A DNA stretch of 64,000 nucleotides, from contig CALSUF010000002.1 in the NCBI GenBank assembly GCA_943789465.1, positions 558,001 to 622,000 of the forward strand, given 5' to 3'. Of this stretch, positions 15,369 through 60,788 are shown one piece after another. Below the pieces are notes generated by a model, which saw only the letters and a program-made list of their open reading frames with translations, searched no databases and was not told where the DNA came from. The DNA is from an uncultured Flavobacteriaceae bacterium (GTDB taxonomy: Bacteria > Bacteroidota > Bacteroidia > Flavobacteriales > Flavobacteriaceae). Each line of letters begins with the position of its first letter. The first letter of the stretch is position 1. The position numbers and the translations under genes were made by a program.

Positions 15369-15413
15369 TTAATCAATTATTAAGGGAAAATTAAGGGTGC
15401 ATCGTGATATTTG
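15369..15413 (+). promoter_or_regulatory. TTAA-triplet promoter box, copy 1
   Basis: TTAA occurs at 15369, 15380 and 15391 (exact 11-bp spacing), and TTTG follows at 15410. It lies 100 bp before the beta-helix gene at 15,514 and just after the winged-helix regulator gene. The same layout recurs at four other PUL promoters. Confidence 0.7.
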
Positions 15414-15513
15414 TTATTATCAAAATTTCAACTAATTCAAAATAAGTTGAGTTTATTAAAAGTCAATATTTTTAAAAATCGATGGACTTTGGACATCACA
15501 AAACACAATCAAA

Positions 15514-16956
15514 ATGAAAAAAATTACTTTACTAACCTTTTTATTTATTGCTTTTGTTGGTTTTACAACATTAGCTCAAAATACCGTTTATGTTTCATCA
15601 ACAGGAGCTGGTAACATGGATGGCACCAGTGAATCAACTGCATTTGGAAACTTTGGAGTTGCCATGTCAAATATAATCTCTGAAGGGGATAAACTCATAA
15701 TTGTAGGAACAATTACACCAGATGGCGCGAATCTAACCTCTAAGAATTTTGCATTCTCAATAGAAGGTCTGAATACTAGCTCAACTTTAGCCGGAAATGG
15801 CGGTACAGGGAGACTCTTTACAATAAATGGATCGTCTTCAGCAAATGTAACTTTTAAAAATCTTACATTTCTAAACAATACTACCACACTTGCTGGAGGT
15901 GGTGTCTTTTTCAATAACAACGCAGGAGCTTCAGCTACCTTTGAGAACTGTACCTTTACTGGAAATTCTGTCACTAACAACGCAGGTGGTGGAGTTATAT
16001 TAGCCTCCAACGGAAATTTAACCATAACAGATTGTGTTTTTGAAAACAATATATCATCAGATAAAGGAGGGGCTATTGTCGCTGGAAATTCTGCAATTGT
16101 AACCATCTCTGGATCTCTTTTTAACGGAAACTCTGGAACTAGAGGTGGTGCAATTGCTGTAACAGGCAATGGTGTAGATTTCGTTTTGAACAACAGTACT
16201 TTTGTAAATAATACCGCAACATCTAGTGATGGAGGAGCGATGTACTTAGGAGGTGCAAATGCCAACAGTAGCATTACCAATACGACTGTGTTTAATAATA
16301 AAGTAATCTACACAACATTGAATCAATCTAGAGGCGGTGGAATACGAATAGAAGGCACTAGACCTTTTACAATTTCAAATTCTTTGATCTATGGTAACAT
16401 TGTAGACGATGGGACTGGAACGAATACTTCGGATATCGGATTAGCTCCTTTAGTAGAATTGACATTAGACCACTCAATTTCTAAAACAATAATACCTGTT
16501 TTAACTGCAGTAGGTGATGGAGGAAATGATGTGTTTTCAACATCTATAATTGAAGCAGATTTAACGTCTTCTAACTTAATGTTTATGACCTCTAGTGGTT
16601 ATGTTGAATATAATTCTGTATCTAGTTCGGAAGACAGCCCTATTGATTTTGGATCTGATGGTAATGATGTTGGATCCTGGGATTCAGGCTTAGCTTTATC
16701 TTTAGATAAGCAAGATGTTTTAGCTGCCAATGTATTAGTGTTTCATAATAAATCTTCTAACAGTATAGAAATTAGCCATACTATTTCTACCCCATTAACT
16801 GTAGAGGTATTTAGTATTTTAGGAACTAAACTATTAGATCTTAAAAATGTAACGCAAAGACAAAGCATTCAAGCAAATTCTTTAGCTACAGGAATCTATA
16901 TTTTAAAAGGTAAATCTAATGGGAAGTCGTTCTCGAAAAAATTCATCATAAACTAA
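15514..16956 (+). CDS. Secreted right-handed parallel beta-helix protein with T9SS domain
   Basis: The 480 residues start with a signal peptide (about 1-21, cleaved near TLAQ) and the NTVYVSSTGAGNMDGTSEST opening typical of pectate-lyase-like folds. Repeated short rungs follow (about 70-330), rich in Asn, Gly and Thr, with phrases such as FENCTFTGNSVTNNAGGGV. A T9SS sorting domain ends the protein (about 400-480, ATGIYILKGK). The fold is shared by polysaccharide lyases, epimerases and adhesins, and I see no decisive catalytic signature. It is homologous to the beta-helix module at 19,952-21,319. Its promoter carries a TTAA-triplet box, so it belongs to the PUL regulon. Confidence 0.85.
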   Translation: MKKITLLTFLFIAFVGFTTLAQNTVYVSSTGAGNMDGTSESTAFGNFGVAMSNIISEGDKLIIVGTITPDGANLTSKNFAFSIEGLNTSSTLAGNGGTGRLFTINGSSSANVTFKNLTFLNNTTTLAGGGVFFNNNAGASATFENCTFTGNSVTNNAGGGVILASNGNLTITDCVFENNISSDKGGAIVAGNSAIVTISGSLFNGNSGTRGGAIAVTGNGVDFVLNNSTFVNNTATSSDGGAMYLGGANANSSITNTTVFNNKVIYTTLNQSRGGGIRIEGTRPFTISNSLIYGNIVDDGTGTNTSDIGLAPLVELTLDHSISKTIIPVLTAVGDGGNDVFSTSIIEADLTSSNLMFMTSSGYVEYNSVSSSEDSPIDFGSDGNDVGSWDSGLALSLDKQDVLAANVLVFHNKSSNSIEISHTISTPLTVEVFSILGTKLLDLKNVTQRQSIQANSLATGIYILKGKSNGKSFSKKFIIN

Positions 16957-16987
16957 AGAAACAGAGTTCCGACTCTTTTAATACTAC

Positions 16988-17018
16988 AAAATAGGGGTTT
17001 TTAAAAAGCCCCTATTTT
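16988..17018 (+). terminator. Terminator after the first beta-helix gene
   Basis: The inverted repeat AAAATAGGGG / CCCCTATTTT, with an extended A/T stem inside, lies 32 bp after the stop codon. The downstream T run is short. Confidence 0.65.
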
Positions 17019-17070
17019 AATTAAAATCTGTTTTCAAAAACAGTTCCCCTTAATTTAAAAAAAGAATATA

Positions 17071-19974
17071 TTGAAAAAGTATTTCGTTTATTTGTTTTTG
17101 GTATTCAATACGTCACTTTTATTTGGTCAACAACCAAATATTGTTTTCATTATGACTGATGATCAAAGTTCTATTCCTTTGAGAGATAGTGATAATATAA
17201 ATCAATCCAGACCTTTTGGTTTTAATGGAGATTCTAAGGTCCACACCCCTATTATTGACAACTTAGCAAGTAACGGAATTGTTTTTAACAATGCTTTTGT
17301 TTCTTCCTCTATATGCAGCCCAAGTAGGTATAGTATTTTAACAGGAAAATACGCAGGAAGGTCTGAAGGCACTAATTTCTTAAACGGCTATCCAATAGGA
17401 CAACTAAGTCGAGTTGCAAACAATATAGAACTCGAAGAAAATACAAATAATTTACCAAAATTATTACAAGCTGCAGGGTACAATACTGCTTTTATAGGAA
17501 AATCTCACATTGTTGATCATGAATTTTTAAATACCTATACACAGGGTAATTATGGTTTCATGGCATACAATCAAACCGATGACCCCTACGTAGAAGCAAT
17601 TTCTGATGCCATGAAATTTAATCATGATAAATGGGCCGATAGAATTAAAGATTTTGGATTTGATGTCGTAGATGCCTTTTATCCAGCAAACTTAAGAGAA
17701 TTAAAAAATGATGACTTAAACGTTCACAACGTTGAGTATAAAAATAAAGCGGTTCTCGATTACATTGAGAATGCTAGTGACGACCCTTTCTTTATTTATT
17801 ACAGTGAAACGGTACCTCATGGCCCAGCACCCTTTTGGTCGAGTAATAATGATTTTTATGCGGGTTTAGATTCAGATGTTAACATCACAGCCGAAGGTGT
17901 TTTAGTACAAGATTATTCGTACTTACCAACACGAGCACAAATAAAAGATGAAATTACTAATTTACCTGGCAAGGATATAAAACAAGCTTGGTTGCGTTGG
18001 TTTGACCATGCTGTTGGTGCTGTTGTTAGTAAGTTAGAGGAAACTGGAAAGTTAGACAATACTATCATCGTTATTACTTCGGATCATGGTGATTTCAACA
18101 AAGGGAAATCTACAAATTATGATGCAGGGACAAAAGTGCCTTTAATGATGTATTGGCCAGATGGAATTTCAACGCCTTCTACTTATGACGAATTGGTTCA
18201 GAATATAGACTTCGCTCCTACTTTTTTAGATCTTGCAGGTGTAGATATTTCTAATTCAGAGATGGATGGTGTAAGTTTAAAAGAGGTTATTACTAATAAT
18301 GCCACAGAACCTGTCCACAATCATTTGTTTTTTGAACTAGGATTTTCTAGAGCGATTAGAACCAAAGACTGGAAATATATCACGGTGCGTTATGATGATG
18401 CAACAAATCAAAGAATAGCCAACGGAGATACTTTCAATGGACCAAACGGAACACAAGTACCTCTACCTTTCTACATCCAAAATGTATCTTTAGGAAGTTT
18501 AAGTGCAGCTGCGTACCCGCTATATCATGTAAAGGACCAATTATTTGATTTAAATAATGACCCTTATGAAGAAGTCAATCTTTTTGGTCTCAACGATGAA
18601 AAAGCAACAGAATTAAGAAATACATTACGTACAGAGCTCCTTACTTTTGAAAATAGACCCTATCAAGAATTTACAGATCTAAACATAGATCTCACAGTTG
18701 CTACAGAAAATACTTCAATTTTAGGGAAGGTTTTAGCGGGATATCAAGGGTGGTTCAACACGTCTACAGATGGAGCAGATTTAAATTGGAAACATTATCA
18801 AACTAGCATAAATGGCGTTAAAAAATTTGAACCTGGCTTTGCCACTTTAGATTATTGGCCCGATATGAGTGAAGCAGATGCCGATGAAAAATACATCACC
18901 CCTTTTACACATAAAGATGAAACTGCAGCGCATGTTTTTTCATCCACAAACATGAAAACAGTCAATCGTCATTTTAAATGGATGAATGATTATGGAATCG
19001 ATGGGGTTTTCTTTCAACAATTTGCATCAGGCCTTAAACCAAATGCACCTAAATTAAAAGCAAATGACAATCTTGTTTTTGACAATATCATAGCAGCTGC
19101 TCAAGCAAATAACAACAGACTCGTCAGTGTTATGTATGATTTATCGGGATCTAACGCCACATCAACAATGGTTGAAGACGTGAAATTACATTGGGAATCT
19201 CTTGTTTCTAGACATGGAGTAAACGATAATTCAAACAATCATTTATTAACCTATAACCAAAAGCCCGTAGTTGCACTTTGGGGCGTAGGTTTTAATCGTA
19301 CAGATAATTATGATTTAGATGATGTGCAAGAATTGATTAACTATTTTAAGAACGATGCCACTTATGGTGGCTGTTCCGTTTTATTAGGTGTACCAAGAAG
19401 CTGGAGAACCTTAAACAGTGATGCCGTTAATGACACTCAATTACACACCGTTATCAGATCTGCTGATATTGTACATCCTTGGACACCTGGAAGGTATAGT
19501 AATATTAGTGGTATCGATAGCCACAAGAATATTATAATTGCGGATAAAGCATGGTGTGATGCAGAAGACTTGTTGTATATGCCGGTTGTTTTTCCCGGTT
19601 TTAGCTGGCAGAATCTAAAGAAAAGCCAAGGCACGTTTTCTAGCCTTAACAGCATTCCAAGGTTAAAAGGAGATTTTTTATGGAGACAATTATACAATGC
19701 CGTAGATGCCGGCGCTCAAACGCTTTATGTTGCAATGTTTGATGAAATGGATGAAGGGACTTGTATTTTTAAAGTTGATAATAACCCGCCGTCAAGTGAA
19801 TTTACTCAATTTACAAACTATGAAGGTTTACCTAGTGACTATTATTTATGGCTTACAGGCAAAGGTGGTGAAGCTTTGAGAGGGGAAATAGCACTTACCA
19901 TTAATCAACCCATTTATCAGAACTTACCAGAAATCACTGATTATTACGTAGATGAATTTGGAGATGATAGCTAA
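17071..19974 (+). CDS. Sulfatase fused to GH71/99-like domain (5' part of a probable trimodular protein)
   Basis: The start is TTG, giving the signal peptide MKKYFVYLFLVFNTSLLFGQ. Residues 22-545 form a family S1 sulfatase with the formylglycine motif CSPSR (Cys82), the metal-binding IMTDDQ and the GKSHIVDHE segment. Residues about 547-945 form a GH71/99-like domain (VLAGYQGWFN, VHPWTPGRY, FDEMDEGTCIFKV). The sulfatase is closely similar to the gene at 39,103 and the second domain to the gene at 28,766. The frame stops at 19,974 in YYVDEFGDDS, the opening of a beta-helix that continues in the next frame. Removing one T at 19,973 joins both. Predicted role: release of sulfate and cleavage of the backbone of the same polysaccharide at the cell surface. 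Confidence 0.9.
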   Translation: MKKYFVYLFLVFNTSLLFGQQPNIVFIMTDDQSSIPLRDSDNINQSRPFGFNGDSKVHTPIIDNLASNGIVFNNAFVSSSICSPSRYSILTGKYAGRSEGTNFLNGYPIGQLSRVANNIELEENTNNLPKLLQAAGYNTAFIGKSHIVDHEFLNTYTQGNYGFMAYNQTDDPYVEAISDAMKFNHDKWADRIKDFGFDVVDAFYPANLRELKNDDLNVHNVEYKNKAVLDYIENASDDPFFIYYSETVPHGPAPFWSSNNDFYAGLDSDVNITAEGVLVQDYSYLPTRAQIKDEITNLPGKDIKQAWLRWFDHAVGAVVSKLEETGKLDNTIIVITSDHGDFNKGKSTNYDAGTKVPLMMYWPDGISTPSTYDELVQNIDFAPTFLDLAGVDISNSEMDGVSLKEVITNNATEPVHNHLFFELGFSRAIRTKDWKYITVRYDDATNQRIANGDTFNGPNGTQVPLPFYIQNVSLGSLSAAAYPLYHVKDQLFDLNNDPYEEVNLFGLNDEKATELRNTLRTELLTFENRPYQEFTDLNIDLTVATENTSILGKVLAGYQGWFNTSTDGADLNWKHYQTSINGVKKFEPGFATLDYWPDMSEADADEKYITPFTHKDETAAHVFSSTNMKTVNRHFKWMNDYGIDGVFFQQFASGLKPNAPKLKANDNLVFDNIIAAAQANNNRLVSVMYDLSGSNATSTMVEDVKLHWESLVSRHGVNDNSNNHLLTYNQKPVVALWGVGFNRTDNYDLDDVQELINYFKNDATYGGCSVLLGVPRSWRTLNSDAVNDTQLHTVIRSADIVHPWTPGRYSNISGIDSHKNIIIADKAWCDAEDLLYMPVVFPGFSWQNLKKSQGTFSSLNSIPRLKGDFLWRQLYNAVDAGAQTLYVAMFDEMDEGTCIFKVDNNPPSSEFTQFTNYEGLPSDYYLWLTGKGGEALRGEIALTINQPIYQNLPEITDYYVDEFGDDS

Positions 19975-21319
19975 TACAGGAACAAGCCCAGGAACTGCGG
20001 TTTCAACTAATCATAATGCTTACGCTTTAGCAAACGATGGAAATACAATTAATATATCGGGTACTGTAATCCATAATTCTAAAATTTCGGTTCAAAAGAG
20101 CCTGAGTTTCTTGGGTACAAACAATGCCATCATTTCACCAGATGAAAATAAAGTAGGTACAGACCGTTTATTTCATATTAGTAGTCCAGATTTGAATGTT
20201 TCTTTTTCAGATCTTACTTTTAAAGGAAACAAAGAGTCATCCATTAATGGGGGAGCCATAAATATGAATGCAAATTCTAATTTAACGTTTACCAATAGTG
20301 TTTTTGATGATAATTCTACGGGCGGCATTGACAAAGCTGGTGGAGGTTTGTTTTTTAGTGAAGGAAATGTCACTATTATAAACTCCATTTTCAAAAATAA
20401 TTTAGCGCGAGGAAACGGAGGCGCTATTAGCGGTTCTGGCGATGGAACTTTAATCATAACAGGGTCTTTATTCATAAATAATACCGCTGCAAATATTAAT
20501 AAAACAGACGGAAATGGAGACAGAGCTAATGGTGGTGCTATCAATGTTTTTGGAAATGGTCGAGAAGTCATAATGTCTGAAAATACATTTTATAATAACG
20601 AAGCAACGTTTCAAGGCGGGGGTTTGTTTTTTGGAGGTTTAAATGTGACTAGCAGTTTAGAAAACATCACTGTTTTTGGGAACAAAGTTTCCTTAACATC
20701 TTCAGAAGCAGGAAGAGCTGGTGGAATTAGAATTGAAGGAGATAGAACTTTCGAGATTAAAAACGCCTTGTTTTATGACAATCGTTTAGGAGATACCGAA
20801 AACCAAGAATCAGATATAAATGTTGCTTCAGTAGTTGAACTAAACTTGATAAATTCATTGTCTGGTAGTTCTGAAGGTTTAGGATCCGATGATACATATG
20901 GCTCTTCAAAAATAGACGCCGTTTTGACCTCTTCGAATTTACGTTTTAATGAAATATCTGGTAAAGTAGAATATGATGAAGCACCAAATGGAGATGACAC
21001 CCCTATAGATTTTGGGGATGATGGAAATGATGCTGGAGCTTGGAACTCAATGTTGGTATTATCTGTTGACGACACTCAAATTTCTAATGATAATTTTGAA
21101 GTTCATTTTTATAATTCGACAAAAAATATCAAGGTATTCTCCTCGAACAATTTACCATTAGATATAAAAATTTATACGATTCATGGAGCGAAGGTATTAG
21201 AGAAAGATCAAAATAACCCTAAGGAACTTATAAATATCGCGCACTTAAAAACAGGTGTTTATATTATAAATGTAATGGAAAACGGCATCCGTTTTTCAAG
21301 AAAGTTTATTCTTTATTAA
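19952..21319 (+). CDS. Parallel beta-helix and T9SS sorting domain (3' part of the trimodular protein)
   Basis: Read alone it has 455 residues but no signal peptide, and its first ~8 residues are an artefact of frame. The sequence NTGTSPGTAVSTNHNAY continues the YYVDEFGDDS at the end of the preceding frame, as in other beta-helix proteins. Rungs rich in Asn and Gly (about 60-320) resemble the gene at 15,514. A T9SS domain ends it (about 375-455, IKIYTIHGAKVLEKDQ, KTGVYIINVM). With a one-base correction the joined protein is about 1,415 residues and would be anchored or released at the surface through T9SS. Alternatively the sequence is a true frameshift and the beta-helix is not made. Confidence 0.82.
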   Translation: MNLEMIANTGTSPGTAVSTNHNAYALANDGNTINISGTVIHNSKISVQKSLSFLGTNNAIISPDENKVGTDRLFHISSPDLNVSFSDLTFKGNKESSINGGAINMNANSNLTFTNSVFDDNSTGGIDKAGGGLFFSEGNVTIINSIFKNNLARGNGGAISGSGDGTLIITGSLFINNTAANINKTDGNGDRANGGAINVFGNGREVIMSENTFYNNEATFQGGGLFFGGLNVTSSLENITVFGNKVSLTSSEAGRAGGIRIEGDRTFEIKNALFYDNRLGDTENQESDINVASVVELNLINSLSGSSEGLGSDDTYGSSKIDAVLTSSNLRFNEISGKVEYDEAPNGDDTPIDFGDDGNDAGAWNSMLVLSVDDTQISNDNFEVHFYNSTKNIKVFSSNNLPLDIKIYTIHGAKVLEKDQNNPKELINIAHLKTGVYIINVMENGIRFSRKFILY

Positions 21320-22572: not shown

Positions 22573-22616
22573 TTAAGTGAAAATTAATATAAAATTAATA
22601 AAAACACATTCATTTG
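22573..22616 (+). promoter_or_regulatory. TTAA-triplet promoter box, copy 2 (SusC operon)
   Basis: TTAA occurs at 22573, 22584 and 22595 (11-bp spacing), with TTTG at 22613. It lies 73 bp before the SusC start, so it would drive the main PUL operon. Confidence 0.72.
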
Positions 22617-22689: not shown

Positions 22690-25600
22690 ATGGAAAAAAT
22701 AAAAATTATTTTATTACTTATAATTTTCCCTCTTATTGTTTTTGCTCAAGAAAACACCATCCAAGGAACGATTACAAATATCATTGGAGAACCTATTCCG
22801 GGAGTGACCGTTCTGTTAGAAGGAACACAAACGGGATCTTCCTCAGATTTTGATGGTAACTACACCATAAACACACAAAATAAAACGGAAGGTGTATTAG
22901 TCTTTAGTTATGTAGGCTTCACCACTGTAAAAATTAGTTTTGTTAAAGACAGCAAAACAATCAATACTGTACTTGAAGAATCAACAGAAGAATTGGATGA
23001 GATTGTCATTACAGCACTAGGTATAAAGCGCGATAAAAAATCACTTTCTTATTCTACCCAATCCGTAGATTCAGAAGATATGAAAGAGGCTCGATCTACA
23101 AACTTTTTAAATGCTCTAGCAGGAAAAGCTGCAGGGGTTCAGGTAGTTAGCTCCTCTACTCCAACCGGATCAACACGCGTTATTATTAGAGGTCTTACTT
23201 CTATTACAGGTGATAACCAACCTTTATACATTGTGGATGGAATACCACTTGACAGCTCACCAGGAGATGGAGGAGTTTCCGTTTGGAATGGCGGCGATGA
23301 TATCGATTTCGGAAGTCCTATCTCTACAATAAATCCGGACGATATAGAGTCTATTCAAGTTTTAAAAGGCGCAAATGCATCAGCACTTTATGGCTCAAGA
23401 GCGTCAAACGGTGTTATTATTATTACCACTAAAAAAGCCAAAAACAGTAAAGGGAAAATAAAAGTAAATATTAATTCGAATTTTTCTGTAATCTCAAATA
23501 GAGAATATCCTTACTATCAGTACGTCTATGGTGCAGGAGATAATGCTAGATTAACTCCTAATGTTGGAAAATTAGATCCAACTACAGGGCTTCCTCTTGT
23601 TGGAGCGTTTAGAAGAGCATATGGAATGCCTTTTTTAGGACAACAAATTTTAGATTATAACGGAGAAGTTGGTACGTACAAACCCAATGTTAATAATGTT
23701 AAAGAACTCTATAAAGTAGGAACAGTAGCTACAAACACATTATCATTTAGTAGAGCGACAGAAAAAAATACATTTCGTTTTTCATATTCTAGCACCTTAG
23801 GGGATCATGTGATTGATAGAATGGAAAAAATCAATAGGAATAATGTTGCGGTACGTTTCTCTCAAGAAATTTCTGACAAACTAAAAGTGAATACCAGTTT
23901 AATTTATGTGAATCAAAGAGTAGACAACAGAATGTATAGAAATGGGAGTGAAAGAAATCCTGCCAATAACTATATGTACATCTTACCTAACATGTCTAAA
24001 GAAAATTTATTTCCTTATAAAGACGAAGACAACAATGCTTTTAATTACGAGGGGCCTTTTAATAACCCCTACTGGAATATATACGAAAACACAAATCAAG
24101 ATATCACAAATAGAATTGTTGCTAATGTGACTTTAAATTGGGACATTTTAAAAGGCTTAAGCCTCAAAACAAGAATAAATGGAGTTGTCAATGATGTAGA
24201 TCGATTTGAATTTAACAATATGGGAGCCGCTTATGATCCAAATGGATTATACAGAGAAATTGCTGTTAAAAGAGAAAATAGGAATTATGAAGCGATATTA
24301 AATTACACCAAAAAAATTAACAATATTTCAATTGTATCCCTTATAGGTGCGAATAGATTCGATTTAAGAACCTCCGGAACACGAAAAACTGCAATTTCAC
24401 TTTTACAAAGAAATATCATGAATTTATCTAATGGTGATGAATTTTCTCCTACAGTATATCTTCCAAATAATAAAACAATAAACTCTGTTTTTGGTTCTGT
24501 ATCTGCAGGAATTAATGACACCTATTTTATTGATATAACTGGAAGAAATGATTGGTCGTCTACACTGCCTTCAAACAACAATTCTTATTTTTATCCATCA
24601 ATAGGTGGTACTACAATCTTTACCAAATTCTTACCTATAAATAACATCTTAACATTTGGTAAAATAAGAGCTTCATACGCTCAAGTAGGAAATGATACAT
24701 CGTTTGACAGAATTATCAATAATTATATTGAGGGTGGAAACTACAACAACACACAATGGTTGGCACTACAAAATCAACGAAAAAATTTAGAATTAAAACC
24801 AGAACTAACATCCTCTACAGAATTTGGAATTGAAACTAAGTTGTTTAACAATAGAATTAGTTTAGATGCTACCTATTATAGGTCATCCACAAACAATCAA
24901 ATTGTTCCAGTACAAGTAACTCCAACATCTGGTTTTATTTCAAAAATTATCAATGCTGGAGAAATTCAAAATAAAGGGTTGGAATTGTTTCTATCAGCAA
25001 AAATATTAACCAACCAATTTAAATGGGATACCAGTGTAAATTGGTCCAAAAATGAATCTTTAGTTGTGTCTCTAGCCGATGGTGTGGATCGCTTATTGCT
25101 AAGAAATTTCTTCAATGTTGGAGTCTATGCAGAAGTCGGAGAGACCTTTGGTAACATTAGAGGAAACGCACAAGCAAAAGACCCAGTATCAGGAACGCCT
25201 TTAGTTTTACCTAATGGGCGAGTACTTTGGGATGAAGACCAATATTTAGGAAATGCACAAGCAGACTGGATTGGAAGTCTAAGGAACACTTTTTCCTACA
25301 AAGGATTTAATTTAAACTTTTTGATTGATGTAAAAATGGGTGGAGAGTTATTTTCTGCCACAATGATCAAGGCAGTAAATCATGGAATGCATGCAGAATC
25401 TTTACAAGGAAGAGAAGAGTATTTACTTTCATCGCTCATCTTAGGAGAAAACAATAATGAAAGACAAGGGGTTGGATTATTTGGTAATAATTATGCAGAT
25501 GCTGAAAGAGCAAAAGGGGTTATCTATAGAGGAGCCGCTTTAGGAGTGCAAGATGAGGATGGTAATTGGGTTGCTGAAAGAGATGAGGATGGTAATATTG

Positions 25601-25926
25601 TGTATTCTCAAAGATGGCTAAGCCCACAACTCTATGGATATGATGGTGTTCAAGATCAAGGAAGATTTGTTTACGATGCTTCTTATGTGAAACTAAGAGA
25701 AGTTGTTTTTGGATATACCTTTCCTCCAAGAATGATTAAAAAATTAAAAGGAGTAAAAAACCTTAAACTTTCAGTTGTTGGAAGAGATTTATGGACGATT
25801 TATAGAAATACACCTCAAGGAATCGATCCAGAGGCAGGAACAACGTCAGGTAATGGACAAGGGATAGAGTTTGGCTCTTTTTTACCTACAAGAACCCTTG
25901 GTGTTAATTTAAAAATAGTATTTTAA
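22690..25926 (+). CDS. SusC-family TonB-dependent outer-membrane transporter
   Basis: This 1,078-residue transporter imports oligosaccharides across the outer membrane in partnership with SusD. The order is signal peptide (1-20), CarboxypepD_reg domain (about 22-100), TonB-box/plug region (LDEIVITALGIKRDKKSLSY, then the plug with VIIRGLTSITGDNQPLYIVD), and a 22-strand-type barrel ending in FLPTRTLGVNLKIVF, with the terminal aromatic residue usual for barrel assembly. SusD follows after 2 bp. It is the first gene of a probable 13-gene operon ending in manA. The neighbours suggest mannose-rich, sulfated oligosaccharides as cargo. Confidence 0.95.
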   Translation: MEKIKIILLLIIFPLIVFAQENTIQGTITNIIGEPIPGVTVLLEGTQTGSSSDFDGNYTINTQNKTEGVLVFSYVGFTTVKISFVKDSKTINTVLEESTEELDEIVITALGIKRDKKSLSYSTQSVDSEDMKEARSTNFLNALAGKAAGVQVVSSSTPTGSTRVIIRGLTSITGDNQPLYIVDGIPLDSSPGDGGVSVWNGGDDIDFGSPISTINPDDIESIQVLKGANASALYGSRASNGVIIITTKKAKNSKGKIKVNINSNFSVISNREYPYYQYVYGAGDNARLTPNVGKLDPTTGLPLVGAFRRAYGMPFLGQQILDYNGEVGTYKPNVNNVKELYKVGTVATNTLSFSRATEKNTFRFSYSSTLGDHVIDRMEKINRNNVAVRFSQEISDKLKVNTSLIYVNQRVDNRMYRNGSERNPANNYMYILPNMSKENLFPYKDEDNNAFNYEGPFNNPYWNIYENTNQDITNRIVANVTLNWDILKGLSLKTRINGVVNDVDRFEFNNMGAAYDPNGLYREIAVKRENRNYEAILNYTKKINNISIVSLIGANRFDLRTSGTRKTAISLLQRNIMNLSNGDEFSPTVYLPNNKTINSVFGSVSAGINDTYFIDITGRNDWSSTLPSNNNSYFYPSIGGTTIFTKFLPINNILTFGKIRASYAQVGNDTSFDRIINNYIEGGNYNNTQWLALQNQRKNLELKPELTSSTEFGIETKLFNNRISLDATYYRSSTNNQIVPVQVTPTSGFISKIINAGEIQNKGLELFLSAKILTNQFKWDTSVNWSKNESLVVSLADGVDRLLLRNFFNVGVYAEVGETFGNIRGNAQAKDPVSGTPLVLPNGRVLWDEDQYLGNAQADWIGSLRNTFSYKGFNLNFLIDVKMGGELFSATMIKAVNHGMHAESLQGREEYLLSSLILGENNNERQGVGLFGNNYADAERAKGVIYRGAALGVQDEDGNWVAERDEDGNIVYSQRWLSPQLYGYDGVQDQGRFVYDASYVKLREVVFGYTFPPRMIKKLKGVKNLKLSVVGRDLWTIYRNTPQGIDPEAGTTSGNGQGIEFGSFLPTRTLGVNLKIVF

Positions 25927-25928
25927 TT

Positions 25929-27677
25929 ATGGAAAATATGAAGAAAAACAAGAGATACGTTAGCTTAAAATTATCTGTGTTCATAATTTTATTTTCAACG
26001 TCCTGTACAAAAGATTTTGAGGAAATCAATACCAATGAGTATATCTTTAATGAAGCATCACCAAGTGCTCTTTTTACTGGAGTTGTAAAAAACACTTTAG
26101 ACCTCGTTGGTGGTACTATGAACGATCAGTTATACAACACTTATGCTAGTTTCTATGGTGGTAAAGGAGGGCAGTTCAATCGTTATTTTTATACAGAACA
26201 AGCACTGGACCAATACTGGAAGAAATTTTATGTGAATATTCTTAAAAACAATCAAGATATCATTGATAGTTATTCTGGTGATTCTAATTATAGCAATAGA
26301 GTCTCAATTGCCAAAATATGGAAGAGTTACGTATATTCAATTTTAGTATCTACATTTGGACCCGTACCTTATCAAGAGGCTTTACAGGGAGAAAACGCAG
26401 CTACTTATGATTCTGAAGAATTTATTTACACAGATATTTTAGCTGAATTAAAAACTGCTTTTGAAAATATAGATGTTTCTGGAGACACGCTAGCACAAGA
26501 TCCTATATTTGATGGAGACCTAAATAAATGGAAGAAATTTGCCAATTCGCTGCGCTTAAAAATTGCGCTTCGAATTTCAGAAGGATTCAAAGTTTTAGCA
26601 CGACAACACGGATCAGATGCGATGGCTAATGAAGCAGACTTAATTGGTTCAAATGCAGAAAACGTTGTCATGAAATGGGGTGTAGAACAAGAAAATTGGT
26701 CATTTAACTATTCAAGATACATTTTTATAGAAGCCAATGATGATGTTGTTCCTTATATGAATTTACATTTTCTTTTAAATCTAAAAACGTATAAAGATCC
26801 AAGACTTTTTAAACTAGTAGAACCCTCTAATGATCCAATAACCCTTACAGATGTTGTTTTTAGATCTGGATCAACCACTGAACAAATTACAGTAGAATAT
26901 GAACTTCCCTATTTTGGAAGGCCTTTGGGTGGAAATGCAGGCGTAGAAGGTTGGGATCTAAATCAAAATGACAATATATTAAACGGTTTAGCAAACAGAA
27001 GGTTTAGCAGACCTAAATTAGATGTATTTATGGCTCAAGATATGGGGTATAATGTAATTACCTATGCCGAAATAAACTTCATCAAAGCAGAAGCAAAGGA
27101 AAAAGGTTGGGGTGGATCTAAATCTACTGAACAGTACTACTATGACGGAATAGAGGCTTCGTTTCAACAATATGGCGCCACTGGAGTCGCTGAGTATAAA
27201 AATAGAGATGGAATACAATGGGAAACCTCTAGTGTAGGAGACAGAGGCTTGTTTGGCCTTGTTACAAGCGGTATTTCAAATAACGCTTTAGACAAAATCA
27301 CAAGACAACGATGGCTCGCTAGCTATAACCAAGGTCATGATATTTGGTGCATGCAAAAAAGAACGAGAGCATTACCATTGATCGATCAATTTGCACCTGA
27401 TGGCGCGACAGGTCTTGATTACGCGCCTTTACCAGAAAGAATGGTTTACCCTCCTTTAAGTGAAGGTGGTCTAAACAATGCTGCATACCAAGACGCAATT
27501 CTAAATATGGGTGGAAATACGCTTTACAATACCCTACAAATGAATAAGTCAGAAGACTATTCCCCAGTTCAATGGGAAACTCTAGTTCCTGAGCTTAATC
27601 AAGATTTTGGAACACATTTTTATGGGGATTCTGAAGATGATTTAATTGCTCAAGGCATAGACTACACAATAATTTAA
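25929..27677 (+). CDS. SusD/RagB-family glycan-binding outer-membrane lipoprotein
   Basis: SusD proteins form the lid over SusC and capture glycans at the cell surface. The 582 residues start with a lipoprotein signal (IILFSTSCTKDFEEINTNE, Cys26). The helical TPR-rich body includes DGDLNKWKKFANSLRLKIAL and the late ITRQRWLASYNQGHDIWCM stretch that is characteristic of this branch of the family. A second ATG three codons in (25,938) is an equally likely start. It is translationally close to SusC (2-bp gap). Confidence 0.93.
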   Translation: MENMKKNKRYVSLKLSVFIILFSTSCTKDFEEINTNEYIFNEASPSALFTGVVKNTLDLVGGTMNDQLYNTYASFYGGKGGQFNRYFYTEQALDQYWKKFYVNILKNNQDIIDSYSGDSNYSNRVSIAKIWKSYVYSILVSTFGPVPYQEALQGENAATYDSEEFIYTDILAELKTAFENIDVSGDTLAQDPIFDGDLNKWKKFANSLRLKIALRISEGFKVLARQHGSDAMANEADLIGSNAENVVMKWGVEQENWSFNYSRYIFIEANDDVVPYMNLHFLLNLKTYKDPRLFKLVEPSNDPITLTDVVFRSGSTTEQITVEYELPYFGRPLGGNAGVEGWDLNQNDNILNGLANRRFSRPKLDVFMAQDMGYNVITYAEINFIKAEAKEKGWGGSKSTEQYYYDGIEASFQQYGATGVAEYKNRDGIQWETSSVGDRGLFGLVTSGISNNALDKITRQRWLASYNQGHDIWCMQKRTRALPLIDQFAPDGATGLDYAPLPERMVYPPLSEGGLNNAAYQDAILNMGGNTLYNTLQMNKSEDYSPVQWETLVPELNQDFGTHFYGDSEDDLIAQGIDYTII

Positions 27678-52927: not shown

Positions 52928-52935
52928 ATATGTGT

Positions 52936-53952
52936 TTATTTATTTTTGGTACTTTCTCTAAAAATAATTTCACCTTCTATTAAAGTAGTTTCTGTAATGG
53001 GTTTATTATTAATAAGAAGTAGTAAGTTTTCTAAAGCTTTTTCAGCAGCCTTTTTTAAATTCAATTTCACAGTAGTTAAGGGAGGGTTTAAGAGGTTTGA
53101 AATTTTTACGTGTCCAAAACCACTAACTGCAATATCATCTGGAATTTTCATCTCAAATTTTTCACAAGCATTGTAAACTCCTATTGCAATAGAATCAGTC
53201 GCACAAATAACAATCTCTGGTAAATTGTTGTAGTTTTCAAGAAAAGTACTAAAATCCTTTTCTGCATTAATTTTATCTAATTTCGTAATTAGATACCATT
53301 CTTCAGGAACAGAAATATGAGCTTCTTTTACGGCTTTATTAAAACCATTTAATCGATGCTTACTGATATTGATTTCTTTATTTCCGCAGATAAACATCAG
53401 CTTTGTAAATCCTTTGTGAATAATCTCTTTTGTAAGCTGATATGATAAATTCTCATCATCAAAAAATACACCAACAGCATTTTTTAAAGAAACAGGTTTA
53501 CGATCTAAATATATAAAAGGTTTGTTATGCTTATTTAATAGATTATGTACTCTATGTTTTTGGGAAGTAGCTACGGAATCAATGATAATTCCATCAACAT
53601 TCATAGACAGTAAAGATTTTACATTATCTAATTCAGCTTCTTCATTTTCAAATGATACCATTAATATAATGTTATAACCAACTTTCTTGGCATTACTGTA
53701 TAATTCTTCTATTATTGTAGAAAAGAAAGAATGATTTATTTTTGGTACAATTAAACCAATAGTATTTGTTTTTTTTGTTGATAAACTTCTACCTACAATA
53801 TTGGGTATATAGCCCAATTCATCTGCAACTTTCTTTACTTTTTCTCTTGTGCTTAGAGCAATATCAGGATGATTTTGTAGAGCTTTAGTTACAGTAACTC
53901 TAGAAATATTAAGTAAATCTGCAATATATTTTTGATTTATTTTACGGAACAA
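52936..53952 (-). CDS. LacI-family transcriptional regulator
   Basis: The 338 residues have an N-terminal helix-turn-helix (about 5-55: YIADLLNISRVTVTKALQNH, the hinge region near GYIPNIVGRSLS) and a periplasmic-binding-protein-like effector domain (about 60-335). In-frame start is TTG. LacI regulators bind palindromes in response to small sugars. Two matching palindromes are found at its own upstream region and before the GH92 at 45,184. I infer that it represses the aldehyde dehydrogenase, the GH92/Nudix pair and probably itself. Confidence 0.92.
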   Translation of the reverse strand: MFRKINQKYIADLLNISRVTVTKALQNHPDIALSTREKVKKVADELGYIPNIVGRSLSTKKTNTIGLIVPKINHSFFSTIIEELYSNAKKVGYNIILMVSFENEEAELDNVKSLLSMNVDGIIIDSVATSQKHRVHNLLNKHNKPFIYLDRKPVSLKNAVGVFFDDENLSYQLTKEIIHKGFTKLMFICGNKEINISKHRLNGFNKAVKEAHISVPEEWYLITKLDKINAEKDFSTFLENYNNLPEIVICATDSIAIGVYNACEKFEMKIPDDIAVSGFGHVKISNLLNPPLTTVKLNLKKAAEKALENLLLLINNKPITETTLIEGEIIFRESTKNK

Positions 53953-54006: not shown

Positions 54007-54009
54007 AAT

Positions 54010-55626: not shown

Positions 55627-55640
55627 TAAATAGTACTTAG

Positions 55641-55685
55641 TTAATTCAATATTAATAGTAAATTAATGTCATCCTCTTTTATTTG
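55641..55685 (+). promoter_or_regulatory. TTAA-triplet promoter box, copy 3
   Basis: TTAA occurs at 55641, 55652 and 55663 (11-bp spacing), and TTTG at 55682. The start codon of the small secreted protein is 23 bp further. Confidence 0.72.
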
Positions 55686-55708
55686 AACAAAATTATAAAT
55701 TAAACAAG

Positions 55709-56038
55709 ATGAAAAAAATAATTGTATTACTTCTTCTTCTGACTGTGTCAGTAGCTCAAGCGCAAAAAAATCAAAAAGCTTTAGAGCTAACAGAGAAACT
55801 GTCTAAAGTTATGGAGTTTGATGAAGATCAAAGTGCAAAGCTTCTAGAATTAATTTTGGATAGAAACAACAAGAAAAGAGCTTTGAGAAAAGAATACGCA
55901 GATGATAAAGATACCTTTAAAGTAAAAGCTAAAGAAGTAGAAAAAGCATATAACAAAGATTTAAGAGTCTTAGCTGGTATAGAAAAATTTAAGCTTTTAG
56001 TTGTCTATAGAAAAGCAAAAAGAGCCGCAAATAATTGA
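55709..56038 (+). CDS. Small secreted basic helical protein
   Basis: The 109 residues consist of a signal peptide (about 1-19, SVAQAQ) and a ~90-residue charged helical region (LTEKLSKVMEFDEDQSAKLL, RNNKKRALRKEYADDKDTFK) with coiled-coil character, resembling Spy/LTXXQ-like periplasmic proteins in style. The function is unknown. It has its own TTAA-triplet promoter box and is followed by another box before the next GH92, which puts it in the PUL regulon as a stand-alone unit. Confidence 0.75.
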   Translation: MKKIIVLLLLLTVSVAQAQKNQKALELTEKLSKVMEFDEDQSAKLLELILDRNNKKRALRKEYADDKDTFKVKAKEVEKAYNKDLRVLAGIEKFKLLVVYRKAKRAANN

Positions 56039-56063
56039 ATTATTTAATAGGTGTAACCCTTAA

Positions 56064-56108
56064 TTAATTGTTTATTAATCAATAATTAAGCCATTGATGT
56101 TTTATTTG
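56064..56108 (+). promoter_or_regulatory. TTAA-triplet promoter box, copy 4
   Basis: TTAA occurs at 56064, 56075 and 56086 (11-bp spacing), and TTTG at 56105, 25 bp before the GH92 start codon. Confidence 0.74.
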
Positions 56109-56132
56109 TTCCTATAACAGATTATAATAAAA

Positions 56133-58377
56133 ATGGTTAAAAATTATTTAATAGTACTCCTATCGGTTTTAAGTTTTTCAACTTCGTTAGCTCAAGAAAC
56201 TGATAACACCAAATACATAGATCCAACCATTGGTAATGTGTCCCGCTTTCTAGTTCCAACGTACCCAACCATTCATTTACCAAATCAAATGCTGAGAATG
56301 TTTCCTGTAAAACAGGATTATATTTCAGACATGGTACAAGCGTTTCCTTTTCAAGTACCCGCTCACAGACGAAAAGGAATTCTACAAATGAAAACTACTT
56401 TAGGAAACGTGAATAACAATTCTTGGAATAAAGGGATGGCTATAGATCACGATTTAGAAATAGTACATCCTTGGTTATACTCCACGTATTTAATAGAAAA
56501 TGATATTAGGGTTAGTTTCACCCCTTCTAAAAAATCAGCAATTTATAAAGTAGATTTTCCAGATGGAACACAAAAAAACTTTTTAATAAAAGGCACTGAA
56601 GATATGCAGTTTTCTGAGGGTGAAAATTCATTTACCATTCAAGAAAAAAGAAGCAAACCAACTCGAGGTGAACATGCCGTCACAAATACGATTACAATTT
56701 TTGTATATGGTGAGATCGTTGATGAGAAAAATAAGCCTATAGAAAATATCAACTATACATTTGACACTCATAAACTTCAAATTTCTGCAACAGAAAATGC
56801 CGCATCAACCTTGCTTATAAAATATGCTATTTCTTATATCAGTGGTGCACAAGCGAAAGAAAATTTCAATAAAGAAATTAAAAATAAAACATTTGAGGAT
56901 GTTACCAAAGAAGGAAAAAAAGCTTGGGATCAAGGTAACGAATCAAATTCGAGTTGAAGGTGGAACAACGGCTCAAAAAAGAACGTTCTATACATCACTA
57001 TACAGAACGTATGAACGCATGGTGGATGTCAATGAATATGGGCACTATTATAGTGGTTATGACAAACAAGTGCATAAAAGTAAGCGTCCATTTTATGTAG
57101 ATGATTGGGTTTGGGACACCTATTTAGCACAACATCCATTACGTACGATTTTAAACCCAGCCTTGGAAAACGAAATGCTCAACTCGTACACCTTAATGTA
57201 TGAACAAAGTGGTTGGATGCCAACATTCCCTCAGGTGTATGGAAATCATTTGTGTATGAATGCCTACCATTCTTCTGCTATTTTTATTGATGGCTACAGA
57301 AAAGGGTTGAAAAACTATGATGTAGAAAAAGCATATGAAGGCATCAAAAAAAACCTAATGCAAGGCACATTTATTCCTTGGAGGCAAGGAAATCCAAGAG
57401 GCGCTTTAGACGATTTCTATCACGAAAACGGCTATTTTCCATCACTTAAAATAGGAGAAAAAGAAACGGTTGCAAATGTAGATGGTTTTGAAAAAAGACA
57501 ACCTGTTGCAGTAACGCTAGGAGTTAGTTATGATTTTTGGGCAGTGTCCGAATTTGCAAAAGAATTAGGAAACACAGACGACTATTCAAAACTAGTCCCC
57601 AAAAGGAAACGATTATGAAAATTTATGGCATTCTAGAAAAAAGGTTATTTATGCCAAAAGATGCCAGATGGTAATTGGGTCGAATATCGATCCAAAACTA
57701 GATGGTGGAAAAGGCTATAGAGAGTACTATGACGAAAATAATGGTTGGACTTTTGCGTGGAATGTACAACACGATATTGCAGGACTCACCAATTTGTTAG
57801 GCGGTAAACAGGCCGCAGAAACTAGATTAGATCAATTATTTAGAGAAAGTTTGGGCATCAGAAAAAGCGACTTTTTTGTGAATGGTTCTAATTCGACGGG
57901 GATGGTCGGACAATTTTCTATGGGCAATGAGCCTTCTTTTCATATTCCATATTTATATAACTATTTTGGCGCGCCTTGGAAAACCCAAAAACGTACACGC
58001 TTCTTGTTAGACGTTTGGTTTAAAGACAACATTTTCGGAATTCCCGGAGATGAAGATGGTGGTGGCATGACCGCTTTTGTGGTATTCACTTCTATGGGTA
58101 TCTATCCTGTAACTCCAGGACTGCCTTATTATAACATCACAAGTCCAATTTTCGAAAAAACATCCATAAATCTTCAGAACGGCAAAACATTTACGGTTGT
58201 GGCGGAAGGTTCTAGCAAGAGAAAAAAATACATTCAGAAAGCATTTATCAACGGGAAAGAGATTTTCTGCGCCATTTATTTCGCATCGAGCAAATTATGG
58301 AGGGTGCCACTTTAAAATTAGACTTGGGTGAATTACCAAACAAAGAATGGGGTAAAAATGCAGTAATGCCAAAATAG
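56133..58377 (+). pseudogene. GH92 alpha-mannosidase, variant subtype, multiply frameshifted
   Basis: The signal peptide (LSFSTSLAQE) and N-terminal domain KYIDPTIGNVSRFLVPTYP resemble the variant GH92 at 30,082. The catalytic motifs DDWVWDTYLAQHPL, SMGNEPSFHIPYLYNY and GDEDGGGMTAFVVF are all encoded, but in different frames. Breaks fall near 56,934, at about four places between 57,595 and 57,690, and near 58,270. The true end, in frame with MEGATLKLDLG, is at 58,377. As sequenced no functional enzyme is made. Its promoter retains a perfect TTAA-triplet box, which argues for recent loss or for sequence errors. Confidence 0.88.
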
Positions 58378-58410
58378 AAAATAATTTAATTAAAATTCAG
58401 ATTCTTTCAT

Positions 58411-59997
58411 ATGAAAAAACACATTGTAACCCTAGTTATACTACTCTCACTTATCGGCTGTAAAACAGCAAAAAAAGAAGCTATTTCTCAAAAGCCAAAC
58501 ATTCTTTTTATAATGACGGATGACCATGCAATAGCTGCAATAAGTGCCTACAAAGGTTTTCTAGCAGAAATTGCCCCCACTCCCAACATAGATAGAATTG
58601 CAAATGACGGTATGCGTTTTAATAATATGTTTTGTACCAATTCTATTTGTGGGCCTTCAAGAGCATCAATCTTAACAGGGAAATATGCACACATCAATGG
58701 ATTTTTTAAAAATGAAGGTGGTGGCGATTTTAATGGCGCACAACAAACGTTTCCAAAGCTATTGCAAAAAGCAGGTTACGAAACTGCGGTAATTGGAAAA
58801 TGGCATTTAGGAACCGCACCAACTGGTTTCGATTACTATAAAGTACTGTTTAATAAAGAAGGACAAGGGTCTTATTTTGATCCCGTGTTCGAAATGGCAA
58901 ATGATAGTATTGTTGAAGAGAAAGGAAAATTTTCTACAACCGTAATTAAAGAAGATGCCATTAATTGGTTGAAAAACAGAAAAGACGCTACGAAACCTTT
59001 TATGTTGATGTATCAATTTAAAGCGCCGCACAGACCTTGGGACCCAGGACCAGGTTATGAAGATTATTTAAGTGAGGTTACACTCCCCTATCCTGCTACT
59101 TTTAATGATGATTATAAAAGTCGAAAAGCTGCTAAAGAGTCTTGGATGCGTATTGATGGACATATGAACAGAAAAGATGTGAAAATTAAACCGCCATCAG
59201 GATTGTCAGAAGAGGAATTAATTGCTTGGAATAAATACGGAAATAACGATGGTGAATTCTGGACGCCTGATCCAAAAATGAAAGATCAAGAACGTAAAAA
59301 CTGGAAATATCAGCGGTATGTAAAAGACTATTTACGAGTGGTCAAAGGCGTTGATGATGCCATTGGTGAGATGTTAGACCATTTAGAGAAAAGTGGTTTA
59401 GAAAAAAATACAATCATTGTATATACATCAGATCAAGGGTTTTACTTAGGGGAACACGGCTGGTTTGACAAGCGTTTTATGTACGAAGAATCAATGCATA
59501 TGCCTTTATTGGTGAAGTATCCAAAAAAAATAAAAGCAGGAAGTGTCAACAACGACTTAGTCCTAAATGTTGATTATGCGCCTACCCTATTAAGTTTAGC
59601 GGGCGTCGAAACTCCAAATGATATGCAAGGAAAAAGTTTTGTGCCTGTTTTAGAAAATAAAACCAAAGCACCCTTTAGAGACGCTGTGTATTATCATTAT
59701 TACGAGTATCCGTATTGGCATAATGTCCAACCACATTATGGCATTAGAACAGACAGGTATAAGTTAATCCATTACTATTATGATGTAAATGAATGGGAAT
59801 TATTCGATTTAGAAAACGATCCCTATGAGTTGACTAATATCTATAACACATCAGAAAATAGCGAGCTTGTAACTAATCTTAAAAATAGATTAGCAGCACT
59901 TAAAAAAGAAACTAAAATGGATTTATCTGATGACGAATTAAGAGAAATGACAGACATCAGAATTGAAAGGCGTTACAGAGTTGAGCCCGCTAATTAA
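58411..59997 (+). CDS. Family S1 sulfatase lipoprotein
   Basis: The 528-residue lipoprotein (LLSLIGCKTA, Cys17) has metal motif IMTDDHA, formylglycine motif CGPSR (Cys80), VIGKWHLG and TSDQGFYLGEHGW. The HYYEYPYW stretch near the C-terminus is typical of the N-sulphoglucosamine/iduronate-sulfatase-like branch of S1. It is intact although both neighbours are broken. It is the sixth sulfatase module in the locus. Confidence 0.93.
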   Translation: MKKHIVTLVILLSLIGCKTAKKEAISQKPNILFIMTDDHAIAAISAYKGFLAEIAPTPNIDRIANDGMRFNNMFCTNSICGPSRASILTGKYAHINGFFKNEGGGDFNGAQQTFPKLLQKAGYETAVIGKWHLGTAPTGFDYYKVLFNKEGQGSYFDPVFEMANDSIVEEKGKFSTTVIKEDAINWLKNRKDATKPFMLMYQFKAPHRPWDPGPGYEDYLSEVTLPYPATFNDDYKSRKAAKESWMRIDGHMNRKDVKIKPPSGLSEEELIAWNKYGNNDGEFWTPDPKMKDQERKNWKYQRYVKDYLRVVKGVDDAIGEMLDHLEKSGLEKNTIIVYTSDQGFYLGEHGWFDKRFMYEESMHMPLLVKYPKKIKAGSVNNDLVLNVDYAPTLLSLAGVETPNDMQGKSFVPVLENKTKAPFRDAVYYHYYEYPYWHNVQPHYGIRTDRYKLIHYYYDVNEWELFDLENDPYELTNIYNTSENSELVTNLKNRLAALKKETKMDLSDDELREMTDIRIERRYRVEPAN

Positions 59998-60036
59998 ATC
60001 AACTACTATTTTAATTATTAAATAATACGATTTCAA

Positions 60037-60652
60037 ATGTTTATAAAAAAAATTCAATTCTCCTCCTATTAGCCATTTCAATAGTCTCTTTTGGGGTACA
60101 AATAAAAAACAATGCTCCTTGGGTTCATTTAATTGATGGGAATTTCCTAAATGGCTATCAAGTAGAAATAGACCCTTCTAAACGTGCTTGGAGTGGAGGT
60201 ATCTATGATGAACAAAGGCGTGGTTGGTTGAATCCATTAACTAATAATCCAAAAGCACAAAAAGCCTTTCAACAAAATGAGTGGAATCATTTTAGAATTG
60301 AAGCGATTGGAGACACGATTAAAACTTGGATTAATAAGGTGCCCGCAGCGTATCTTATAGATGATAAAACAGCTTCAGGGTTTATAGGTTTACAAGTGCA
60401 TGGTATTCCAAGAGATAAAAAAGCAGGCACACAAATTAGTTGGAAAAACATTAAAATCATCACAGATAATCCTGATAAATATTCAAGAAAATCAACTTTG
60501 ACTCCTGTAAACACCAAAAATAATTTAACCATTAAAGAGCAGAAAAGCGGTTGGAAAATGCTTTGGGATGGAAAAACGACAGCAGGTTATTTTTTTTAGC
60601 AAAAAAATTATCCGAAGATAAATACTATACGTTCTTTGATAAGATTCATTAA
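60037..60652 (+). pseudogene. Degraded DUF1080 (3-keto-disaccharide hydrolase-like) gene
   Basis: An N-terminal signal (LLLLAISIVSFG) is out of frame with the ATG by one base. The text then runs from the start of the domain (WVHLIDGNFLNG) straight to its later part YQVEIDPSKRAWSGGIYDEQ. About half a domain (strands expected between) is missing. A second DUF1080 copy begins at SGWKMLWDGKTTAGYF and is also cut short, leaving only the end KKLSEDKYYTFFDKIH. DUF1080 proteins are concanavalin-like and some act on 3-keto-glycosides. This copy is probably dead. Confidence 0.75.
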
Positions 60653-60743
60653 TTTAAAATCAAGAGTTATGTTTCATTTTTTACACGTAACCATAGATAC
60701 TTTATATTGTAGTACTTAAATTATTTTATTTGGTAATGGAGGT

Positions 60744-60788
60744 TAATGTTTTATTAGTGCTTTATTAATAAGCAGGTATTATTATTGT
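60744..60788 (+). promoter_or_regulatory. TTAA-triplet promoter box, copy 5 (one degenerate unit)
   Basis: TTAA at 60744, TTAG at 60755 and TTAA at 60766 (11-bp spacing) are followed at 60785 by ATTG. TATTATTG there is close to TAnnTTTG. The metallophosphatase start is 16 bp further. Confidence 0.62.

Follow-up and report, generated by a model that had tools for sequence, protein, structure and literature searches.

A phased TTAA box co-occurs with a predicted membrane-anchored SARP-type regulator family at candidate alpha-mannan utilisation loci of Bacteroidota

Glycan consumption in Bacteroidota proceeds mainly via polysaccharide utilisation loci (PULs), and to our knowledge the regulators of many marine PULs have not been assigned. 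The sensors of hybrid two-component systems (HTCS) possess a periplasmic part, and proteins of the PhoB type bind to 11-bp direct repeats, a distance which corresponds to about one turn of the DNA helix. For the SARP-type activator AfsR, two protomers are described as lying side by side on the promoter, where they overlap the -35 element and contact T-38 in the upstream repeat and its equivalent T-27 in the downstream one (PMC10936776). A PUL for C6-sulfated alpha-1,3-mannan has been characterised in Ochrovirga pacifica (PMC13063451). Here we analyse 64,000 nucleotides from an uncultured Flavobacteriaceae bacterium (assembly GCA_943789465.1, contig CALSUF010000002.1, positions 558,001 to 622,000; hereafter the window) which harbour a PUL, a recurrent promoter element consisting of three TTAA units at a phase of 11 bp (the box) and, at position 12,702, the gene of a predicted membrane-spanning regulator. 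That this one box is strongly associated with a single family of regulators, in many genera of the phylum, is established. We consider it highly probable (roughly 85%) that the boxes are activator sites of the 12,702 regulator, which would represent a membrane-anchored, SARP-type one-component family for alpha-mannan PULs.

Five boxes conforming to TTAA-N7-TTA(A/G)-N7-TTAA-N14/15-(T/A)TTG, with a unit phase of exactly 11 bp, are present in the window:

15369..15413, plus strand: box 1 (TTAA triplet, N15, TTTG), upstream of the beta-helix/sulfatase operon (gene at 15514)
22573..22616, plus strand: box 2, upstream of SusC (gene at 22690)
55641..55685, plus strand: box 3, upstream of a gene for a small, probably exported protein of 109 aa (gene at 55709)
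56064..56108, plus strand: box 4, upstream of a GH92 (glycoside hydrolase family 92) gene (start 56133)
60743..60787, plus strand: box 5 (middle unit TTAG, tail ATTG), upstream of a metallophosphoesterase gene (60805)

All five triplets had been proposed in the initial annotation, whose description is confirmed except that box 5 starts at 60,743 and not at 60,744. The single TTAG is the middle unit of box 5, TTTG or ATTG begins 18 or 19 bp downstream of where the third unit starts, leaving 14 or 15 bases between the two, in 5/5 boxes, and the boxes are placed shortly before PUL genes with 17-100 bases from the TTTG to the gene start. Three other TTAA-rich promoters, near 9,157, 12,633 and 34,682, are indeed out of phase with spacings of 18/9/13, 10/6/6 and 9/10, respectively. 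Compared to the five boxes observed, 300 Markov copies of the window per order, both strands counted, contain a mean of 0.04 (first-order) or 0.03 (third-order) full boxes and at most 2.

Throughout the host genome (2.1 Mb, 5 contigs, 84.9% complete) the stringent pattern matches seven times, five times in the window and twice past its end. All seven matches lie within about 66 kb at one locus and the reversed-pattern control yields none, in agreement with the enrichment at the PUL for which a genome-wide search had been suggested. The two additional boxes, which follow the end of the window at 12.5 and 17.5 kb, are located 47-48 bp upstream of genes for two type IX secretion system (T9SS) proteins, one a beta-helix protein of 1,074 aa, the other a surface protein of 1,512 aa rich in repeats. 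On the box matrix, box 5 scores poorest (22.4 versus 26.3-30.3 for the other six). A looser pattern provides ten matches, namely the five of the window, the two beyond it, the 22,573 box read once more in reverse, and two strays, with three matches in its reversed control. The strays (G000:C2:143070 and 178420) are found between open reading frames (ORFs; >=60 aa) far from the PUL and were excluded from the regulon. One of them, G000:C2:178420-178463, about 43 bp before an ORF of 216 aa, resembles G001:C4:114567-114610 from another species and may serve a different regulator.

Among 17 same-genus genomes compared, two contain a close ortholog of the regulator, namely G009 (92%; one contig, 99% complete) and G013 (86%); four further genomes carry relatives of about 25% identity and G007 a fragment. 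Stringent matches amount to six in G009 and seven in G013 (one site is read on both strands, leaving six sites), and to 0-2 in the other 15 genomes, which is the level of the reversed control. The PULs of G009 and G013 are syntenic with that of the window and their boxes recur at the same promoters, so that the comparison of orthologous promoters which had been called for turned out in favour of the box in both species with a close regulator ortholog. Across the three species and six promoters, 149/156 core columns are identical (23/26 for box 1, 25/26 for box 2, 24/26 for box 3 and 25/26 for box 4). At the three promoters with full-length flank alignment, identity comprises 121/134 positions in box plus tail versus 393/591 in the flanks. 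The metallophosphoesterase gene and box 5 (60743-62919) were both not seen in the otherwise syntenic PUL of G009; hence, gene and box may have been gained or lost as one unit. As to paralog loci of about 25% identity, G014 and G015 possess 11-bp TTAAT repeats some 85-90 bp before a GH92-like ORF, lacking the TTTG tail (L071:7980-8016 and L073:3143-3168), and G017 possesses none.

The regulator is predicted to be composed as follows:

12702..15269, plus strand: membrane-spanning regulator, 855 aa counted from TTG (79 homologous loci; AlphaFold2 model with a mean confidence score, pLDDT, of 85.2)
12717..12767, plus strand: N-terminal signal helix, residues 6-22 (AlphaFold2 helix and sequence)
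12789..13376, plus strand: predicted periplasmic jelly-roll (LamG-like), residues ~30-225 (strand pattern of the model)
13413..14324, plus strand: predicted periplasmic Kelch beta-propeller, residues ~238-541 (Pfam Kelch matches; Foldseek matches to Kelch propellers)
14370..14468, plus strand: transmembrane helix, residues 557-589 (hydropathy peak at residue 561; model helix H557-589)
14535..14822, plus strand: predicted winged-helix DNA-binding domain, residues ~612-707 (predicted fold; PF00486 in 5/43 homologs)
14844..15242, plus strand: predicted BTA-type helical domain, residues ~715-847 (predicted fold; PF03704 in 1/43 homologs, E 0.047)

The jelly-roll, for which there is no database match, is presumably of the LamG type. 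At E<=0.001 the matches of the predicted C-terminal fold are limited to the SARP-type proteins AfsR and EmbR, and the succession of winged helix and BTA domain by which the SARP family is defined is present in this fold. The OmpR-type winged helix which the initial annotation had assigned to the 12,702 protein is thus retained in the model and refined to SARP-type, i.e. an OmpR-type winged helix plus BTA. As the SARP-like part sits C-terminal of the transmembrane helix, while classical SARPs carry it at the N-terminus with extra domains following, we call the regulator SARP-type and not a classical SARP. It has no N-terminal receiver domain as an OmpR/PhoB response regulator would, the Kelch propeller and the transmembrane helix being found there instead, nor does it exhibit any histidine kinase, receiver or AraC-type helix-turn-helix (HTH) Pfam domain characteristic of an HTCS.

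By means of the regulator C-terminus alone we fetched 79 loci, drawn from the best 80 of the 312 relatives confirmed, with up to 10 kb on either side. Genes were called by mechanical picking of ORFs and labelled according to their BLAST matches with the proteins of the window, and taxon groups were assigned by hand from record titles; locus totals include 28 Mucilaginibacter-like loci and one own-genus locus (L076, from G013). By BLAST, 76/79 loci align to the window regulator near full length with 31-43% identity (86% for the own-genus locus), the short ones being L089, L092 and L137. When equally spaced identical 5-mers were sought without presupposing a motif, over lags 6-18, lag 11 came first with 29 intergenic triplets, the repeated word being ATTAA in 20 of them; lag 7 followed with 19, and each remaining lag had 0-7. 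TTAA triplets themselves occur 85 times at lag 11, all of them intergenic and spread over 59 loci, versus 0-7 times at other lags from 6 to 20, which rules out a box specific to the genus. Exact boxes with tail number 63 at lag 11 (46 loci, 15/31 taxon groups) and zero at lags 8-10 and 12-14; with one mismatch allowed, the count rises to 81 (54 loci, 20 groups) versus 0-6 at other lags. Upon removal of the Mucilaginibacter-like loci, with which two unnamed soil loci were grouped, and of the own-genus locus, the remaining 50 loci still comprise 42 lag-11 triplets in 32 of them, compared to 0-6 at lags 7-10 and 12-16. A possible 11-bp TCCTG triplet in L142 was dropped, a near-normal TTAA box being close by.

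The gene next to 66 tailed boxes (TTAA/TTAG units) is labelled GH92 in 22 cases, GH99-like in six, SusC in six, beta-helix in two, and surface-repeat and regulator in one each; in 26 cases it bears no label, and in two it falls beyond the edge. Pfam assigns five unlabelled ones to DUF5703/GH95-like (two), GH95, the enolase family and ROK (one each), and a sixth shows a T9SS tail alone. Within the 79 loci, GH99-like genes occur in 52, GH92 genes in 40 and SusC genes in 32. These sequence comparisons support that the box goes with a family of putative regulators of alpha-mannan PULs and not only with the host genome. In Mucilaginibacter, a recurrent second box target combines DUF5703 with a GH95-like catalytic region (L088:5579-7732, L104:4460-6601), which might hint at a decorated mannan.

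Twelve whole genomes were picked by hand from the 79 loci. They contain 38 exact full boxes, 18 of which lie within 60 kb of a regulator compared to a chance estimate of about 1.2; the reversed control provides three in all. PF16317 (GH99) matches 13 times in these genomes, with 8/13 matches within 40 kb of the regulator; 4/13 exceed the curated cut-off, and three of those are near.

Several observations weigh against the boxes being sites of this regulator family. The remaining 20 of the 38 exact full boxes are not near a regulator, no exact full box is found in G063, G064 and G071, and none near the regulator in G068. Without a tailed box at up to one mismatch in the stretch covered are 25/79 loci, and the 79 loci are not independent since 28 are Mucilaginibacter-like. 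The window shows no phased box upstream of the regulator's own gene. The close relative G317, from an independent sample, combines a lag-11 TTAA triplet with a GH99-like gene but lacks the TTTG tail. Searches of Pfam, NCBIfam and PDB sequences with the C-terminus of the window regulator gave nothing useful, and sequence profiles are nearly blind to the DNA-binding domains, as PF00486 is recognised in 5/43 and PF03704 in 1/43 homologs and neither in the window protein; since naming from sequence failed, the predicted fold was needed to name this part. Finally, the same-genus genomes G003, G005 and G008 each carry a box that precedes a T9SS gene of the beta-helix or repeat-rich kind, and no regulator was found in them. 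G005 holds a 91% SusD ortholog on contig C31, and its regulator may therefore lie in an assembly gap, while in G003 and G008, both incomplete, neither regulator nor close SusD was found. The boxes concerned (L059 of G005, L060 of G008, L057 of G003) are near-identical to the box of the 1,512-aa surface-protein gene. A further match, G003:C8:9775, is more than 500 bp away from the next same-strand gene in surroundings resembling general metabolism and was taken as chance. The proposal of the initial annotation that a PUL regulon box is tied to the 12,702 protein is supported by genome clustering, by the joint conservation of box and regulator in the two sister species, by their co-occurrence across the phylum and by the predicted fold, and loses some ground to the box-less loci of relatives and to the two same-genus genomes with box and without regulator.

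The distant boxes bear directly on the strongest competing explanation, that an ordinary OmpR/PhoB-type response regulator reads the boxes and the SARP-like protein is merely a neighbour. The 20 exact matches more than 60 kb from a homolog, some of them TTAAC-rich, are what would be expected if other winged-helix proteins used similar words. No such response regulator, however, was seen among the Pfam-scanned ORFs of the window, the rest of the genome not having been searched for one, and the box co-occurs with a single regulator family over many genera and within the genus is dense only beside a close regulator ortholog. We therefore consider this explanation improbable.

A further explanation requires no dedicated protein: the triplets would represent intrinsic promoter architecture, in which phased AT tracts act as UP elements or through DNA bending. 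The conserved box positions are all A or T, and most boxes stand upstream of a -7-like element, as it would predict. Such an architecture should, however, be spread genome-wide, yet 7/7 stringent matches fall at one locus of the host, and the box tracks one regulator family phylum-wide. Among 395 genomes drawn from the phylum, eight, including the host genome, hold the regulator family at E<=1e-40; six of these are distant (21-25% identity over the longest stretch) and show no exact lag-11 TTAA triplet, with one one-mismatch tailed match each in two of them (G401, G201). Intrinsic architecture thus appears very improbable, and the six genomes likewise rule out that all relatives of the regulator use the 11-bp box.

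In 5/6 distant genomes a TTAAC(C) triplet at 12 bp (<=1 mismatch) is located directly past the regulator stop codon, and G163 has none:

L169-L170 (G304), L171-L172 (G401), L173-L174 (G201), L175-L176 (G370), L177-L178 (G453): 12-bp triplets after the regulator stop

Three of these five genomes have no ORF of 100 aa downstream on that strand for at least 650 bp, and in G370 the next ORF (271 aa) resembles a lone SARP-type domain. The G304 site is also readable as an overlapping 11-bp triplet with two mismatches. Against a 12-bp sister word speaks a small motif-free scan of the distant loci, in which lag 12 forms no peak (4 triplets, fewer than the 7 of lag 7 and the 6 of lag 14); as this count is flat, the case is based on recurring place and word. 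It is conceivable, though on balance doubtful, that Bacteroidota possess a clan of membrane-anchored SARP-type glycan regulators whose subfamilies are told apart by repeat word and helical spacing, TTAA at 11 bp for alpha-mannan and a sister TTAACC at 12 bp. Spacing would then be part of a specificity code, fixed by how the domains pack next to each other, and each promoter would carry three protomers tethered to the membrane.

The genes around the boxes in the window are the following:

15514..16956, plus strand: T9SS beta-helix protein, first gene past box 1
17071..19974, plus strand: sulfatase plus GH99-like tandem protein, 967 aa (matches to the O. pacifica PUL)
22690..27677, plus strand: SusC and SusD genes past box 2
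55709..56038, plus strand: 109-aa small protein past box 3
56133..58315, plus strand: GH92 gene past box 4 (three ORFs in different frames; Pfam GH92 in the first and third, the middle one not scanned)
60805..62919, plus strand: metallophosphoesterase past box 5

The locus encodes SusC/D, GH92, GH99-like enzymes, sulfatases and phosphomannose isomerase and hence includes the combination by which an alpha-mannan PUL is recognised, a SusC/D pair together with GH92, GH99-like and sulfatase genes. Residues 1-534 and 536-952 of the tandem protein share 51% and 57% identity, respectively, with two separate stretches of the O. pacifica PUL, a layout resembling PbSulf1-GH195 versus OpSulf1/OpGH195 of the diatom C6-sulfated alpha-1,3-mannan PUL (PMC13063451). 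Judged by homology to this characterised PUL, the substrate of the window PUL probably belongs to the sulfated alpha-mannan class. Two GH92 genes and one sulfatase gene appear to be split over several ORFs (56133-58315; 62930-63965 with L012:7-1320; L012:6487-8071). The G009 counterpart of the box-4 GH92 (L063:6323-8536) aligns in one stretch, and the splits reflect either assembly error or real breakage. A minus-strand pair at 50210-53952 inside the PUL, encoding a LacI-family regulator and a PQQ-type propeller protein, carries no box and possibly forms a second control layer. That the boxes belong to this LacI-family regulator (at 52,936) is the least probable explanation of all, for although it is a second regulator gene within the same PUL and TTAA is palindromic, LacI proteins use inverted repeats rather than three direct repeats at a set distance from a -7 element, the promoters beside the LacI gene are free of TTAA/TTAG triplets, and LacI homologs are labelled in just 7/79 regulator loci.

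The genome of the cultured O. pacifica strain S85 encodes a homolog of the 12,702 regulator (found via L082) with 38.8% identity over the full length. With tails of 13-16 bases accepted, ten boxes (five exact, five with one mismatch) are distributed along 51 kb of its mannan PUL on the coding strand, while the opposite strand of 80 kb contains none. They are positioned 17-258 bp upstream of nine genes, among them SusC, two beta-helix genes and a small gene of 112 aa, the latter preceded by a one-mismatch box at 52 bp. Between the 112-aa protein and the 109-aa protein of the window there is no detectable similarity.

Returning to the boxes as activator sites of the 12,702 regulator, we infer the following mode of binding and activation, including oligomeric state, start sites and ligand. 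The periplasmic jelly-roll and Kelch propeller would sense a product of sulfated alpha-mannan breakdown, and the cytoplasmic SARP-type C-terminus would bind the box, its protomers arranged side by side on the same helix face, one per TTAA unit. In place of a -33 element, sigma would be held by the two protomers lying downstream, the third one would add affinity, and about seven transcription units of one alpha-mannan PUL would be switched on in this way. The sigma-A -7 box of Flavobacterium is given as TAnnTTTG at -12 to -5 (PMC9723704), to which the consensus of 36 boxes ahead of TTTG (T, A/T, any base, A) is a loose match. If TAnnTTTG is placed at -12 to -5, arithmetic from this assumed start site puts the start of the third unit at -26/-27 and that of the second at -37/-38. 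Since the TTAA units thus fall at the AfsR positions T-27 and T-38, an AfsR-like mode of activation with one extra upstream repeat suggests itself. With the start site assumed, 10-11 bp separate TTAA from TAnnTTTG, a distance that shrinks to 7-8 bp when a heptamer is taken as the repeat; for SARPs, 8 bp between the 3' repeat and the -10 element are given. In unit spacing the candidate site agrees with the direct repeats of SARPs (11 or 22 bp), as lag 11 stands out.

The finding is real and larger than a first reading from sequence alone could show. If the proposed function is correct, regulator class, DNA code and likely substrate class are obtained together, regulons can be drawn directly from genomes via the boxes, revealing sulfated-mannan genes including small and unknown ones, and the SARP activation mode known from antibiotic clusters extends to a membrane-tethered sensor. 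O. pacifica S85, being cultured and possessing a characterised mannan PUL with ten boxes, makes this directly testable.

No description of such a SARP-type PUL regulator of Bacteroidota was found among the listed matches in the open-licence literature searched. CadC and ToxR carry their winged helix at the N-terminus and have no BTA domain, so that the domain order is reversed in the window regulator. PhoB/OmpR response regulators are alike in the winged-helix fold and in the use of 11-bp direct repeats. The Polaribacter/Ochrovirga PUL for C6-sulfated alpha-1,3-mannan shares the sulfatase-GH99-like tandem, GH92, sulfatases, SusC/D and homologous O. pacifica genes with the window; the main text describing it deals with enzymes and contains no word starting with "regulat" (PMC13063451). 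SusR and HTCS of Bacteroides PULs switch on the adjacent PUL from predicted sites consisting of direct repeats, but HTCS rely on an HTH of the AraC type and their predicted sites have a spacing of about 21 bp (PMC3878776), in contrast to the predicted SARP-type domain of the window regulator and the 11 bp of its candidate site; for the DNA-binding domain of SusR, a lack of significant similarity to others is reported (PMC3878776). The SARP activators of Actinobacteria, with AfsR and EmbR as solved structures, share the predicted fold of winged HTH plus BTA, direct repeats that recur after one helical turn immediately ahead of the -10/-7 element and, with the start site assumed, the promoter register. 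AfsR additionally contains NOD and TPR domains, and EmbR contains an FHA domain (PMC10936776), whereas the domain of the window regulator is C-terminal in a predicted transmembrane protein with periplasmic jelly-roll and propeller, has a candidate site of three TTAA units and belongs to PULs of Bacteroidota.

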